The translations under genes and the position numbers were made by a program. DNA of 64,000 nt from Saprospiraceae bacterium (lineage in GTDB: Bacteria > Bacteroidota > Bacteroidia > Chitinophagales > Saprospiraceae), in the NCBI GenBank assembly GCA_958295895.1, contig CATQHI010000009.1, positions 124,001-188,000 on the forward strand, written 5' to 3'. Shown in pieces: positions 4,797 to 15,336 of this stretch (the stretch's first letter is position 1; every line of letters begins with the position of its first letter). Below the pieces are notes generated by a model that searched no databases, was not told the DNA's origin, and saw only the letters and a list, made by a program, of their open reading frames with translations.

Positions 4797-5729
4797 CTAG
4801 GCCGAGCGGGCCGTGTCGAGCAAGTTGCGAATCGTGGTTTCCTCCGGTGCCTTGTGATCGGGGGGGGATGCCAAGGCACGCTCCAGGGCTACGATAGCGT
4901 CCGACTTGCGTCCGGCCCGTAGGTAGAGTTCTCCGAGCTGGAAGGCCACCCGGCGGTCGTAGCGGTCCAGGCTAGCGATCCGCTGCTTGCGCTTCGTGAA
5001 CATGCCGTAGGCGCGCATGGCATCCGTGAGTTGGCCGAGTTGGAGGTAGGCATCGCCGAGGGCCACCTGAGCCATCCAGTAGATGGACTGGTGGGGGATA
5101 CTGTTTTTGGTCACGGCTTCGAAGTCGGCGGCCGCGGCGGGCACGTCGTTCAGGCGCAGGTTGACCAGTCCCCTACCGTAGTAGCTCTCGGGCATCAGGG
5201 GGTTGATGGAAATGCTCTTGGAATAGTCGTAGAGGGCATCCTTGTCGTTGCCGAGTCGGTAATTGATAAAGCCGCGCCGCTCGTAGGCCTGGGCGTGACG
5301 CTCGAAGCGACTGACGACCTTGGTCATCAGTTTCAGGGCCTCCTGCTCGTTGTCGCGCTGGTCGACCAGCTCACGACCGTGGTTGAAGAGTTGTACGGTG
5401 GTGCGGTCGCTCTTGGGCTCGAGCTGGTGGTGGTCGATCATGACCCCGGCATCGAGGCGCCAGAGGTTAAGGCTTCCGGCAATACTGAAGGTCACTACGC
5501 GCTCCAACAGATTGAGGGTGTTGAGCCAGAGGCGCTCGGTGCTAGGTAGTACGGTGCGGGGTACGTCCAGGGTGAGTTCTTCCTCCTTGAAGATCGTTTC
5601 GGGCTTCAGGAGGATGTCGTTCTTGTAATAATTTTCCATCCGGTGAGCGTACTGCTCCATAACCTGGCTAAATGCCCGGCGGGAGCCAAACTCCAACTGT
5701 CCCGCGATGATCACTTTGTACTCAGACAT
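4797..5729 (-). CDS. TPR-repeat protein
   Basis: A 310-residue protein with tetratricopeptide repeats from about residue 120 to the end (for example YERRGFINYRLGNDKDALYDY and YYGRGLVNLRLNDVPAAAADF type units). There is no signal peptide or membrane segment, so it is probably cytosolic. The first 110 residues match nothing I know. Sixty-one bases separate it from the PD40/OmpA gene downstream and the two may be cotranscribed. A box CACCTTTG (minus strand, near 5779-5786) lies about 50 bases upstream and resembles the Bacteroidota -7 element. Confidence 0.8.
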   Translation of the reverse strand: MSEYKVIIAGQLEFGSRRAFSQVMEQYAHRMENYYKNDILLKPETIFKEEELTLDVPRTVLPSTERLWLNTLNLLERVVTFSIAGSLNLWRLDAGVMIDHHQLEPKSDRTTVQLFNHGRELVDQRDNEQEALKLMTKVVSRFERHAQAYERRGFINYRLGNDKDALYDYSKSISINPLMPESYYGRGLVNLRLNDVPAAAADFEAVTKNSIPHQSIYWMAQVALGDAYLQLGQLTDAMRAYGMFTKRKQRIASLDRYDRRVAFQLGELYLRAGRKSDAIVALERALASPPDHKAPEETTIRNLLDTARSA

Positions 5730-10428: not shown

Positions 10429-12231
10429 TAGCTACCGGCCGGCAACCTGGAGACATCGATCGTAGCTCCCCGGGCTCTCAGGGCGACCTGCCCGTCGCTG
10501 CGGTATACCACTACGGACTGCTCGGGGTCGATCTCGCCGCTCAGGAAGACTTTGCTGACCGCCGGATTGGGGTACAGCGCAATCGTACCACTGTCGAGGC
10601 GTACGCTGATGGGGCCGTACACGGTCTCCGTGCCATCAAAATCGCGCTGCCGCAGCCGGTACAGGTTCTGGCCCGGAAAGGGCTGGTGGTCGACGTAGAC
10701 GTAGGTGCCATCGCCGGCAGGCACCTGTCCGATCTCGGTAAACACCCGGCCGGCCTTGCTGCGCTCCAGTACGAAGCGTCGTTGTCCTGCTCGCTGGCCG
10801 TGGCCCAGTCCAAGCGTACCGCTCGCTGCATCGGCGTGGCCGTGAAGTAGAGTAATTCTACCGGCGTGGCTACTACACTGGCGCAGGGGGGAAGCCTTTT
10901 TAGTGGGGTCGATGGAGGTGTAGGGCCGGTAGCCGCCGGCGGTGTTGCCGTCCGGATGCAGGGTGAGCGACTCGCCGTCGGGGGCATCGTCGAAGGCCGC
11001 CCGGGCCACGACCCGCCCCGCCGGATTGCGCAACGTGACGGTCTCGGGGGGAGTCGTTGTTTAGCCCCAGGAAACCACTGGCTACCCCGAATTCACAGGG
11101 TAGGCTGAGCGATTCGCTCTCCCCGGCAAACACCACGAAGCTCTCCTGCGGTCCCAGCACGGCCCCCTCCGAAAGGTGAAGCGGGGGCCGGAATTGGAGC
11201 CGTCGTGCAGGGGTGAAGCCACCCACTTCCACCTGCCGGTCGCCTACGTTATAGATCTCGACGAACTCGTCGCCGGCATTCACCTTGCCGTCCTGATTCA
11301 CATCCTCACCTGGGTCGGCCAGTACCTCGTTGATGACCAGGTCACTGGGGGCACACTGATCGGCGGGTACTTCGATGGGCAATTCGAGGTCGCAGTCGCC
11401 GCCGGAAACCCGCACTACATAGGACTGCCCCTCTAGTAAGTCTTCCACTACGATCTTGCCGTCCTGCACCCTAGCCGGATCGTCACCGGTGACTGCCCCC
11501 GCCCCCGCCCACGGTGACCGTCACACCCGCCTCGGCACCCCGGTAGGGCAGGCTCAGGCGCACGCCGTCGGCCACGGCGGTGGAAGGCGCTACAGTCGAG
11601 CCGGGGCTTTCTCAGCTTTACGCCACACACGGCATTGCAGCTACCGTCCGTGCCACTGGCCAGGAGTTGGAGGTTATCGAGGCCAGCTACATCGTCGCCA
11701 TTCTGGTCGAAGTACACCTCCAGGCGGGCGGTCTGGGCGGTACCGGGTATGCGTACCGTATCGGTGACCCAGCCGTCAGTAGAAACACCGCCGCCGTTGC
11801 GCCCGTCGATGAGCACCACCCGCTCGTGCAGGAAGCCGTCCAGGTAGAGCTCGTAACCAAAGTCATCGCCGCCGTCGTAGCCCACCACATTGTAGGCGAA
11901 CACGAAGCGGGGCACTGGTGAGATTACAGATCTCGCCGGCATCGAAGACAAGGCGGCCTACGGGGTCGCTGGCCAGGGCGTTATCTACATCCCGGGCCGC
12001 CCAGAAGTGCTCGCCGGCGTAGGCCGTGTCAATACCCTTAATCCGGGGTACCACGTTCCAGGTGGGCAGGCCGCCGCTGCCGTAGGGCGGCACGTTGGTG
12101 GTGTACGGGAGTTGTCCTTCCCGTTCTCCTTCAAACCCTGTATATATAAGGTATCCTGGGCGCGGCCGCAGGTGCTAAGGACGTAGAGAAGTAGAAGAGT
12201 CAGCAGGTGGCGGGTAGAAAAATACGTTCAT
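10371..12231 (-). CDS. Secreted lamin-tail/T9SS sorting-domain protein, frame-broken
   Basis: One gene spread over all three minus frames. Reading from 12231, MNVFFYP shifts into a signal peptide [14 protein letters not shown] ending RAQ. Then come a CBM-like beta region (11450-11950), a lamin-tail domain with [18 protein letters not shown] and DEFVEIYN (about 11240-11345), a [10 protein letters not shown]...[12 protein letters not shown] linker typical of T9SS proteins, and a C-terminal sorting domain ([13 protein letters not shown]...SYYLRLRRG). At least five indels are needed, near 12216, 12145, 11925, 11450-11600 and 10790-10900. Codons stay sensible between breaks, so sequence error is likelier than decay. 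It is exported through the type IX system by inference. Confidence 0.75.
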
Positions 12232-12292
12232 ACGGTTTTTACCGCAATGGTCGGCCGCCCCACTCTACTATTCGTGGAGTGGTGTTAAGTTT

Positions 12293-12300
12293 TATCTTTG
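12293..12300 (+). promoter_or_regulatory. -7 box of cca
   Basis: TATCTTTG is an exact match to the Bacteroidota TAnnTTTG element. Only 8 bases separate it from the ATG at 12309, so the transcript would have almost no leader. Confidence 0.6.
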
Positions 12301-12308
12301 CGGCCGGT

Positions 12309-13726
12309 ATGGTATTTCAAATTCGGGACGACGAACGCAGGATTTTCGAGGTTATCGGCCGGGCCGCCGGGCAGCTCGGTTTTCCGACCTACGTGGTGGG
12401 GGGCTACGTGCGCGACCGCCTGCTGGCCCGCCGAGTAAGGACCTGGACATCGTCTGCGTAGGCAGCGGCATCGAACTGGCGCAGTGCGTGGGCGATAGTC
12501 TGCAGCCCCGTAGCCGGGTGACCGTCTATAAGCGCTTCGGCACTGCCGCCCTGCGTCACCACGACCTCGAGATCGAATTCGTAGGGGCCCGCAAGGAAAG
12601 CTACCGCTCGGATAGCCGCAAGCCCACCGTGGAGTCGGGGAGCCTGGCCGACGATCAGCTACGGCGCGACTTCACGATCAACGCCCTGGCCATCAGCCTC
12701 AACGAACGGGACTACGGCACCATCATCGACCCCTTCAACGGACTGGAGGACCTGGAGGCTAAGCGTATCGTTACCCCCCTGGAGCCGGGCAAGACCTTCA
12801 GTGACGACCCCCTGCGGATGCTACGGGCCATCCGCTTCGCTACCCAACTGGGATTTTCCATTGATCCGGTGACCTTCCGGGCCATCCAGGAGTACGCCGA
12901 CCGGATGCGCATCATCAGTTGGGAGCGCATTGCCACCGAGCTCAATAAGATCATGCTGGCCCCGAAGCCGAGCGTAGGCTTACTGCTACTCGACCGGGCC
13001 GGACTGTTGGAGTACATCCTGCCCGAGCTAGCCGCTCTCAGGGGCGTCGAGAGCCGTAACGGCCGCAAGCACAAGGACAATTTTATCCACACCACCAAGG
13101 TGGTCGATAAACTGGCCCGCAAGAGCCCCGACCTCTGGCTGCGGTGGGCGGCCCTGCTGCACGACATCGGCAAGGCCCGCACCAAGCGTTGGGAACCGGA
13201 GGCGGGCTGGACCTTCCACGCCCACGATGCGGTGGGAGAGCGGATGGTGCCTAAGGTATTCCGCCGCCTGCGGCTGCCCAACGATAGGCTGAAGTACGTA
13301 CAGAAGCTCGTGGCCCTGCACCAGCGGCCTATTTCCCTGACCCAGGAGGAGATCAGCGACTCGGCCGTGCGCCGCATCCTATTCGATGCCGGCGAGGACA
13401 TCGATGACCTGATGACACTCTGCGAGAGCGACATCACCAGCAAGAATCCGCGCAAGGTGAGGCGCTACCTCGAAAACTACGAGCGGCTCCGCGAGCGGAT
13501 GCGTGAGATCGAGGGAAAGGACCACCTGCGCAACTGGCAGCCCCCCATTAGCGGGGAGCTCATCATGGAGACTTTTGGCATCCCCCCGAGCCGGGAGGTG
13601 GGCCAAATCAAGGATGGGGTACGGGAGGCCATCCTCGACGGCGACATCGCCAATGAGTACGGGCCAGCCTACGCCAAGATGCTAGAGGTGGCGGCGCAAC
13701 TCTCGATCACGCCAGTGGGGGCATGA
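12309..13726 (+). CDS. cca: CCA tRNA nucleotidyltransferase/poly(A) polymerase family with HD domain, one frameshift
   Basis: The N-terminal nucleotidyltransferase signature GGYVRD is at residues 33-38 and is followed, after a frame break near 12433, by KDLDIVCVG carrying the catalytic Asp pair. The remaining 12436-13726 is open: RRDFTINAL and DPFNGLEDL, the tRNA head region ([17 protein letters not shown]), and an HD phosphohydrolase motif LLHDIGK at about 13,160. The enzyme adds or repairs the tRNA 3' CCA end. Restoring one base in the CGCCGAGTAAGG stretch joins the two parts perfectly, which points to a single missing base. It begins just after its -7 box and ends before an intrinsic terminator. 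Confidence 0.88.
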
Positions 13727-13763: not shown

Positions 13764-13790
13764 CACACCCCACGGTTGTGGGGTGGTACC
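13764..13790. repeat. G/C hairpin between cca terminator and RNA candidate
   Basis: TACCA plus CCCCAC pairs with GTGGGG plus TGGTA around a GGTT loop, with a two-base bulge. It is a strong hairpin without a clear T tract; its role is unknown. Confidence 0.55.
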
Positions 13791-13807
13791 CCCCCTACCC
13801 CCACCCC

Positions 13808-13815
13808 TATCTTTG
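13808..13815 (+). promoter_or_regulatory. -7 box before the candidate RNA
   Basis: An exact TATCTTTG box stands in a region with no open reading frame, followed about 6 bases later by a series of hairpins. Confidence 0.55.
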
Positions 13816-13820
13816 AGGTA

Positions 13821-14028
13821 TCGAAAGGGAAGGTGCAACTTCTCTTTCGTGGTTTTCCAAAAAGCGTGTTCATTTGATTTGGTGGAGGGATTGTTGGTTT
13901 TTCCCCACCGGTTTTTGAAGGTTTGTATTGTAATCCCTGGCGCCAAGGCGCTCTAAATTCCAGTTATTTCGGTAGTTAGAAAACTACGACCAAAGGTCCG
14001 CACCACGTGCGGGCCTTTCTTTGTTTTA
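13821..14028 (+). ncRNA. Candidate structured small RNA
   Basis: About 208 bases lie between a -7 box and a terminator with no credible coding frame. In order: hairpin 13822-13849 (CGAAAGGGAAG pairing with CTTCTCTTTCG, one G-T pair), a GGTGG...CCACC hairpin (about 13880-13909), a compact GCGCC-AA-GGCGC hairpin (13940-13951), a GTAGTT-AGAA-AACTAC hairpin (13972-13987), and the terminator at 13992-14018. I looked for 6S, tmRNA, SRP RNA and RNase P signatures and saw none. The evidence is structural only. Confidence 0.5.
13992..14028 (+). terminator. Intrinsic terminator of the RNA candidate
   Basis: AAAGGTCCGCAC pairs with GTGCGGGCCTTT around a CAC loop (12 pairs, one T-G), then CTTTGTTTTAG. 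The reverse complement also ends in CTTTGG, so it may also serve the minus-strand glycosyltransferase that stops at 14026. Confidence 0.8.
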
Positions 14029-15336
14029 GGCCGGTACGCTGCGCCTGCCACGTTCCCAAAGATAGTACCCAGCCACCAAAGTATACTCCACCCCCACCAG
14101 CACGAGGTTTTCTTGGTAGGGCTCGGTGACGTAGCTGGTGTAGGTAAGCATGATCAAAAAGGACCAGAGGAGGGGGAAGTGCCAGGAGGTGAATATGCAC
14201 AGTACGATCGGCACGGCCAGGTACCAGGGGTGGACCGTCGTGGCGCAGAGTAGGTAGATGACAAAGGCGGCCAGCCACAGCCCCGGTAGACTACGCCAGT
14301 CGGTGCGGTTATCGGATAGTGCTACGATGAGAATGATTCCGGCAGCCACCTGCGCCAGCACCGGACCAAAACGGGCGATTTGATTCCAGCCCAGCTCGTA
14401 GTAGCCGTAGGCCCGTAGCAGATAGTACACGCTCGCGTTGAACTCAAACTTGCGGAAGTAGAGCTCCAGGCTCCCCCCGAACCCCTCCACGAAGCCACTG
14501 CCCACGAGCAGGGGCAGAAAGAGTAGCCCCGTTACCGCAGCAACTCCCCCGAAGAAGGTCCAGAACGGCCGCCCCCACAGGCGCTTGAGCAGAAAGGGGA
14601 GTAACATCAACGGCAGGAGCTTACTGGCTACGGACAGTGCCATTGCACCCGCGGCCCCGGCGTAGTTGCTTGTAGTGAGTAGGTGAAGGGACCAGAGCAG
14701 AAAGCAGACCATGGCTCCCTCGAAGTGGAGGTTGCCGACGATCTCCACGATGATGAGCGGGTTGAGCCAGTAGTAAAGTAGGCGCTCGGGCGGCAGGTGA
14801 AAGGTGAGAAGCAGCCGGTACAGTAGCAGTAAGCTACCCAGTTCGGCCAGGAAGAGCACCGACTTCATCACCACCGCCGCCCCGTACCAACTCGTAGGAC
14901 TGATCCAGGCCGCTAAGGTAAATACCCCCTGGGCAATAGGGGGATAAATGGTGTAATAGTCCGGGGAGTTGAGGCGATTAAACAGCGCCTGACCGAGCCC
15001 CTCCACGCCCTGACCTGGCTCCAGATAATAGGCTGGCAGGTGGGCGAAGGGATTGTGACCACTGACAACTAACCGACCGTCCCAGATGAAGCGGTATACA
15101 TCGTCGCTGAGCAGGGGAAAGGCAAACACCAGCAGGAGGCGCAGCGCAATGCCCAGTCCGATCCAGTACCGTAGTGGCGTGCCGAGGGGTCGCCAGATCA
15201 CCAGCAAGTAGCCCAGAAACGCCAGGGTGCAGGCACCGAAGAGGGAATGAAAATCCGTACGGTCTACCCCGTAGCCCAGGTACAGTACGCCCGCCGCCAG
15301 CAGGAAGGCTCCGGCGATGCGGGCGGCAAGCCTCAT
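14026..15336 (-). CDS. GT-C fold (GT87/DUF2029-like) membrane glycosyltransferase
   Basis: A 436-residue protein with about ten or more membrane segments. The first loop carries LLSDDVYRFIWDGR near residue 75, the acidic DD motif of polyprenyl-phosphate-sugar-dependent mannosyl or arabinosyl transferases, followed by a GHNPFAHLP stretch. The predicted role is transfer of a sugar from a lipid carrier on the outer face of the inner membrane; donor and acceptor are unknown. The start overlaps the stop of the flavoprotein gene (ATGA), so the two are translationally coupled. It ends at a shared terminator. Confidence 0.8.
   Translation of the reverse strand: MRLAARIAGAFLLAAGVLYLGYGVDRTDFHSLFGACTLAFLGYLLVIWRPLGTPLRYWIGLGIALRLLLVFAFPLLSDDVYRFIWDGRLVVSGHNPFAHLPAYYLEPGQGVEGLGQALFNRLNSPDYYTIYPPIAQGVFTLAAWISPTSWYGAAVVMKSVLFLAELGSLLLLYRLLLTFHLPPERLLYYWLNPLIIVEIVGNLHFEGAMVCFLLWSLHLLTTSNYAGAAGAMALSVASKLLPLMLLPFLLKRLWGRPFWTFFGGVAAVTGLLFLPLLVGSGFVEGFGGSLELYFRKFEFNASVYYLLRAYGYYELGWNQIARFGPVLAQVAAGIILIVALSDNRTDWRSLPGLWLAAFVIYLLCATTVHPWYLAVPIVLCIFTSWHFPLLWSFLIMLTYTSYVTEPYQENLVLVGVEYTLVAGYYLWERGRRSVPA

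Follow-up and report, generated by a model that had tools for sequence, protein, structure and literature searches.

The stretch at 13808-14028 of the window, by which we mean the whole 64,000-nucleotide piece of contig that was analysed, is, judged from its sequence and that of its relatives, a gene for a non-coding RNA that is folded and conserved and stands behind an unusual promoter of its own that resembles a switch. This RNA belongs to a set of small RNAs that Neolewinella has in common with related bacteria, and the set is probably switched on by a sensor-kinase/response-regulator pair. That the plus strand carries a structured RNA with transcription of its own had already been proposed by the first-pass annotation; the proposal is supported by comparative evidence, with transcription itself being inferred.

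The elements of the gene are collected in Table 1. The exact TATCTTTG box was found where it had been described (13808-13815, plus strand), hairpin 1 and the later hairpins appeared at their described places in the minimum-energy fold, and the terminator stem (13992-14018) indeed has 12 pairs with a 3-base loop, followed by a T tract, CTTTGTTTTA, which is imperfect. A palindrome 5' of the box, ACCCCACGGTTGTGGGGT at 13767-13784, had been missed, as had the sister RNAs and the connection with a two-component system, and, since this conserved palindrome belongs to the promoter, the start of the feature was moved upstream to 13767. The absence of a credible coding frame was borne out, the longest frames in 20 homologues being 10-43 codons and sharing neither position nor sequence. 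The same holds for the remark that no known RNA family was recognised in it: the families of Rfam 15 gave no match at gathering threshold in the window or in 19 related loci. AbsR25, Thr_leader and Trp_leader came up as permissive matches only (best E 0.072) and were rejected as far under the thresholds; AbsR25, the best of the sub-threshold matches, reached 23.2 bits compared to the 47 needed. Neither tRNA nor tmRNA was found in the window.

Table 1 Features of the RNA gene and its promoter (positions in the window).
Feature	Position	Strand	Basis or remark
Palindrome ACCCCAC-GGTT-GTGGGGT (consensus ACCCCAYNNNNRTGGGGT), probable operator	13767..13784	.	before all 21 genus copies; centred ~45 bases before the inferred start
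C-rich 23-base spacer, no TTTG at the would-be -33 element	13785..13807	+	sequence
-7 box TATCTTTG, Bacteroidota housekeeping sigma type (TAnnTTTG)	13808..13815	+	sequence
Non-coding RNA	13820..14022	+	alignment of 20 homologues; both ends inferred from box and terminator
Hairpin 1, 11 pairs, loop region GGUGCAAC at 13832-13839	13822..13849	+	covariation
Conserved segment TTTCCAAAAAGCGTGTTC, outside the consensus helices	13854..13871	+	AAGCGTGTT part common to the RNA of other genera
Hairpin 2, near-invariant ATTGTTGGTTTT at the tip (13890-13901)	13880..13910	+	covariation
Hairpin 3 (GGCGCCAAGGCGCU)	13939..13952	+	fold and alignment; sequence variable among relatives
Conserved segment CTAAATTCCAGTTATT	13953..13968	+	CTAAACTCCAG also in the G011 copy and some RNAs of other genera
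Hairpin 4 (GUAG..CUAC), nearly invariant	13972..13987	+	fold and consensus
Intrinsic terminator, 12-pair stem and T-rich tail	13992..14028	+	sequence, alignment

The gene 5' of the RNA (12488-13726) encodes the Pfam domains PolyA_pol, RNA-binding and HD, that is, those of a tRNA nucleotidyltransferase (cca), and the gene 3' of it, on the other strand, gave a weak GT87 match under the Pfam cut-off. The cca reading seems frame-shifted at 12207-12490 and is continuous in relatives, for example at L005; intact copies exist, and the frame change may be an assembly fault. Exact TATCTTTG boxes occur five times in the window, 0.8 being expected. Just downstream of the RNA, an exact box on the minus strand (14057-14064) could start a transcript antisense to it; this box is absent from the aligned locus L002.

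The RNA was present in all 21 Neolewinella/Lewinella genomes searched (in the NCBI taxonomy, Neolewinella belongs to the Lewinellaceae, Saprospiria). With 13790-14035 as query, BLAST found one homologue each in 20 of these genomes and none in the remaining 39 of 60 relatives; in G011, the 21st, a more diverged copy (L043) stands behind the same promoter and carries CTAAACTCCAG exactly. A search of a contig collection for the pattern of this RNA, designated A-type, returned 18 contigs, 17 of which are titled Neolewinella or Lewinella and one is a MAG titled Bacteroidia bacterium. At 16 of the 20 loci found by BLAST, the RNA is immediately preceded on its own strand by a gene of the nucleotidyltransferase-like cluster.

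The minimum-energy fold of 13808-14040 was only moderately better than those of shuffled sequences (z -2.54; 4 of 200 shuffles were as good), and folding energy is by itself too weak an argument; the comparative evidence is stronger. Missing conservation of the hairpins in relatives had been named beforehand as a ground for refutation, and hairpins 1 and 2, both anchored on their loops for a gap-free alignment, show compensatory change. In hairpin 1, counted in 20 of the 21 homologues (L043, which has no such loop, was left out), 92.9% of the cells were paired and 30 cells had changed on both sides, compared to 10.4 in shuffles (sd 3.9; reached by 0 of 500). Its covariation was 0.641 as opposed to at most 0.302 when the alignment was slid, and one position has the pair types UA (9), CG (6) and AU (4). 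Hairpin 2, counted in 21 homologues of which 20 are distinct, has 34 double-change cells compared to 12.5 (sd 2.7; 0 of 500) and a covariation of 0.485 as opposed to at most 0.204. Weaker measures were less discriminating: the pair count was reached by 60 of 500 shuffles for hairpin 1 and by 252 for hairpin 2, the pair-type count by 376 and 26, respectively. Hairpin 4 hardly varies and is therefore uninformative either way. Invariant blocks in the alignment of 20 homologues are GGTGCAAC (absent from L043), TTTCCAA.AA.CGT.TT, AT.GTTGGTTTT and TCCAGTTATT. The loop sequence GGUGCAAC recurs as terminator loop in 11 of the 20 aligned copies, the window copy not being among them; the terminator loop table is limited to these 11 of the 21 homologues. 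A consensus pairing of the promoter box with a downstream segment, given by RNAalifold, was rejected because the box is the -7 element; the covariance model R1 was built with this dubious pair included. A UGCA loop-loop kissing interaction was also considered and the evidence found too weak.

The promoter has a stereotyped architecture of palindrome, about 23 bases and TAnnTTTG, the latter given as -7 consensus in the part of PMC7366714 that was available. The conserved upstream box reads ACCCCA-N6-TGGGGT, and its core CCCCA-N6-TGGGG precedes the -7 box in all 21 genus copies; the spacer measured 22-24 bases in 77 of 89 sites examined and is 24 here, counted from TGGGG. The pattern CCCCA-N6-TGGGG-N12..40-TAnnTTTG has 42 places in the 21 genus genomes, compared to two in the reversed control. 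Reading the downstream DNA by eye assigned 40 of them to non-coding RNA genes (21 A-type, 17 B- or C-type and 2 of a further type) and the remaining two, L042 and L059, to protein genes. The promoter signature finds small-RNA-like genes where the Rfam models found none.

In the genome under study, ACCCCAYNNNNRTGGGGT has exactly one other place, C3:129130, before a small-RNA-like gene. This second exact palindrome, together with a weak R1 match at C3 (E 9.5e-4), led to a tandem array (L031 8350-9150, minus strand) that comprises a B RNA, a C RNA behind its own palindrome, and a third palindrome with a possible D RNA, hence at least two further small-RNA-like genes and probably three. Paired promoter places were found in this genome (G000) and seven others (G017, G012, G016, G009, G001, G004 and G007), and G020 has a single B-type place. 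The nine aligned B RNAs have TCTCTCATT..AAACCT in common, and all nine loci have a terminator with the GGTGCAAC loop. The further RNA type, at L050 and L055 in two genus genomes, has AAAGCTTTCTGACATACCA before its terminator.

Outside the genus, R1 had no matches (it matched 5 of 248 genomes of the family, all within the genus, with about nine candidates per genome scored and the dubious pair in the model), and pattern searches were therefore used instead. The family of the genome set is taken by us to be Saprospiraceae as defined by GTDB. The promoter pattern was found in 47 of the 248 genomes: 38, namely 5 of the genus and 33 others, had the canonical spacing (match length 45-49), and nine had other lengths only. 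When 26 canonical non-genus sites were read by eye, 16 appeared non-coding and 10 lie before protein genes; three of the 16 (L087, L101 and L104) may be leader sequences of the gene that follows. Because of these ten sites and three possible leaders, the regulon is not restricted to RNAs. At L087, L101 and L104, the RNA-like stretch (GTTACGTAAGGGGGAATC ..) stands behind the same promoter and before an apparent FAD-dependent reductase gene, named by eye. A third RNA type (GGCTTTAACGTAACACACA ..) was seen just 3' of a response-regulator gene at L095 and L083, with two tandem copies in L095.

A common RNA outside the genus contains ATCCTTCCTATTCACCTATCAACAAGAAGCGTGTTTAC followed by a terminator-like hairpin, with CTAAACTCCAG farther downstream in some cases. 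Its motif AACAAGAAGCGTGTTT was found at 22 places, spread over 22 of the 248 genomes and 15 genera (control, 1), and at all 22 places the palindrome (up to 2 substitutions) and box are found 45-101 bases upstream. The window RNA has AAGCGTGTT and CTAAAYTCCAG in the same order and behind the same promoter as the RNA of the other genera, and on these sequence grounds we take the two to be orthologous; since R1 did not bridge the two forms, orthology rests on the promoter, short motifs and motif order. At order level, 31 of 396 genomes matched (reversed control, 4); 24 of them belong to the same family and 7 to others. Six of these seven other-family sites were examined: two have spacers of 22 and 23 bases and one of 24, at least two have a protein start within about 30 bases, and AAGCGTGTT was absent after the promoter at all six.

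A gene of one cluster of propeller kinases of ~1050 residues adjoins 13 of the 22 AACAAGAAGCGTGTTT loci, upstream and co-directional at 11 and convergent at 2; no propeller kinase was found within 1.5 kb at the other 9. A RecQ-type helicase lies 3' at 9 of the 22 loci (domains read in one). Three kinases examined by Pfam contained Reg_prop, Y_Y_Y, HisKA_3 and HATPase_c, and three regulators contained Response_reg and GerE (LuxR). L133, L136 and L139 have regulator, kinase, palindrome and RNA in this order on a single strand, and L134 and L135 have kinase, palindrome and RNA; at L138 regulator and kinase converge with the RNA and the palindrome has one mismatch, and at L118 and L119 the kinase converges with the RNA. 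By analogy with the hybrid sensors of Bacteroides, the propeller/Y_Y_Y sensor suggests an extracellular cue, perhaps glycans.

Judged from coordinates, at least 12 of the 33 canonical-promoter genomes outside the genus have a regulator match within 5 kb on the same contig. All 38 canonical-promoter genomes have a regulator match (E<=1e-40), compared to 105 of 248 overall; the hypergeometric probability is 6e-17 by genome and 3e-7 by genus (23/23 vs 64/112). These values overstate the association because the search at E<=1e-40 takes in paralogues and the genomes are not independent; the figures come without an unrelated-regulator control. Of nine genomes with other promoter lengths, three have a regulator match, and 67 of the 105 regulator-positive genomes lack the canonical promoter. 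The regulator is present in all 21 genus genomes. Its orthologue in the genome under study (G000:C14:18642-19280) is unlinked to the RNA, has a RecQ gene 6 kb away and no adjoining kinase, and no palindrome with box was found at 30 genus regulator-match loci (~1.5 kb on each side, some cut by contig ends). At L137 of G130, palindromes at 5185, 5886 and 6091 lie on both sides of a response-regulator gene, as for autoregulation.

The observed conservation, covariation, promoter architecture, sister genes, and linkage and co-occurrence with the regulator are best accommodated, in our judgement, by a promoter activated by a two-component system from which a regulatory RNA of ~200 bases that acts in trans is made, a circuit resembling GacA-RsmZ/CsrB but built from different components. 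The RNA would be the version in Neolewinella of one that part of the family has. We consider this reading fairly probable; transcription, binding by the regulator itself, its role as activator and not repressor, and the mode of action are inferred, there being no transcript, binding or target data. The position of the palindrome near -45, the uniform spacer length and the lack of a -33 element beside the box are what a dimeric activator would lead one to expect; it would be recruited by the palindrome and replace the missing -33 element. The likely activator would be the LuxR/NarL-type response regulator, with the propeller/Y_Y_Y/HisKA_3 kinase that is encoded beside it in relatives as presumed partner; firing of the sensor would then lead to joint production of this RNA and its sisters. 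Less certain is what the RNA does. We favour base pairing in trans with other transcripts via the invariant exposed segments, by analogy with FopS as far as it is described in the accessible part of PMC11697453, and the GGUGCAAC hairpins may be a docking site for a common partner.

It is possible, but we think unlikely, that the RNA is instead a protein sponge like CsrB/RsmZ, whose GGUGCAAC hairpins and CTAAAYYCCAG segments titrate an unknown RNA-binding protein. Of 20 aligned A-type RNAs, 11 have the hairpin two times, all nine aligned B-type RNAs have it in their terminator, the only 3 of 15 GGTGCAAC copies with stems of at least 4 pairs (window and eleven long loci) are all in A or B RNAs, and 22 RNAs of other genera have 13 CTAAACCCCAGTTA-like motifs (up to 3 substitutions) compared to 0.3 in mononucleotide shuffles. 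However, no RNA has more than two copies of the hexaloop, L043 lacks the loop, 11 of the 22 other-genera RNAs have no CTAAAC match (up to 3 substitutions), and in their length and invariance the conserved segments resemble seeds for base pairing more closely. A related and still bolder idea, that Saprospiria have their own master switch like Gac/Rsm, is a speculation to which we give only a slim chance: one kinase and LuxR-type regulator would switch on a whole group of unrelated small RNAs, partly arranged in tandem, and these RNAs would share the GGUGCAAC hairpin and jointly titrate or guide an unknown global RNA-binding protein that takes the place of CsrA, which is not known from Bacteroidota.

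The identity of the activator may also be questioned, since close linkage of the LuxR-type gene in at least 12 of 33 genomes and co-occurrence in 38 of 38 could reflect shared ancestry of neighbouring genes while another regulator binds the palindrome. The lack of promoter palindromes near the regulator gene in Neolewinella and the 67 regulator-positive genomes without canonical promoter would agree with this, but such close linkage and complete co-occurrence, and the palindromes that flank the regulator gene in G130, speak against it, and we regard it as rather improbable. A diverged 6S RNA that binds RNA polymerase would, like the A-type RNA, be a conserved single copy of about 200 bases per genus genome, and RF00013 and RF01685 were unmatched in this genome (RF01685 matched no control genome either, so its absence is not demonstrated). 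Yet neither the consensus nor 20 single folds have a conserved closing stem or a long rod with central bubble, 6S is not among the permissive Rfam matches, and sister RNAs stand behind the same promoter, which leaves this reading very little room. Even less can be said for the palindrome being the terminator of the upstream cca-like gene and the remainder its 3' tail without a separate gene. The gene does precede the RNA on the same strand at those 16 of 20 loci, but no T tract follows the palindrome, the same palindrome and spacing are found before small RNAs at other loci, and at L043 the gene homologue is on the other strand. Among these readings we keep the two-component-activated, trans-acting RNA. 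Such a circuit is compact, its candidate activator can be named, its operator is sharply delimited and more than one RNA is its output, which makes the use of small RNAs by these bacteria a directly testable question.

Knowledge of post-transcriptional control in Bacteroidota is patchy; an obvious homologue of Hfq or ProQ is missing from Bacteroides, according to the available excerpt of PMC7366714. Searches for reports on a Lewinella sRNA or Neolewinella transcriptome found none, and those on Saprospiraceae small RNAs, judged from titles, found nothing relevant; most subscription journals are outside the coverage, and earlier reports are therefore not ruled out. PMC13370916, a nitrite RNA paper available in part, was set aside as unrelated.

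Compared to known systems, 6S RNA (RF00013) and 6S-Flavo (RF01685) are likewise conserved intergenic RNAs, and the size is that of the RF00013 model; in contrast to them, the Saprospiria RNA has no family match and no rod-like fold, terminal stem or central bubble (20 folds and consensus). The paralogous sRNAs FopS and GibS of Bacteroides thetaiotaomicron, bound by RbpB, are also a multicopy sRNA family of Bacteroidota (PMC11697453). The promoters of FopS are canonical sigma-ABfr promoters, and its action is through base pairing close to start codons; the part of that paper at hand mentions no two-component palindrome and calls the regulator of FopS unknown. From GacS/GacA (BarA/UvrY) with RsmX/Y/Z and CsrB/C the circuit differs in its operator, ACCCCATNNNNATGGGGT near -45 and not TGTAAGN6CTTACA, in the invariant loop, which is GGUGCAAC and not AGGA/ARGGA (neither was found among the invariant columns of the A-type alignment A1), in the propeller/HisKA_3 type of kinase, and in an RNA that matches no Rfam family. 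What the systems share is a LuxR-type response regulator and a repeated hairpin-loop motif. The neighbourhood of an RNA behind a palindrome with a LuxR-type regulator and a histidine kinase occurs in other genera, the regulator in this genome being unlinked. In the GacA system, as far as PMC3171408 was accessible, the upstream box TGTAAGN6CTTACA is a palindrome and individual copies of it stand before more than one RNA, and a palindrome with several boxed RNAs is also seen in the Saprospiria circuit.
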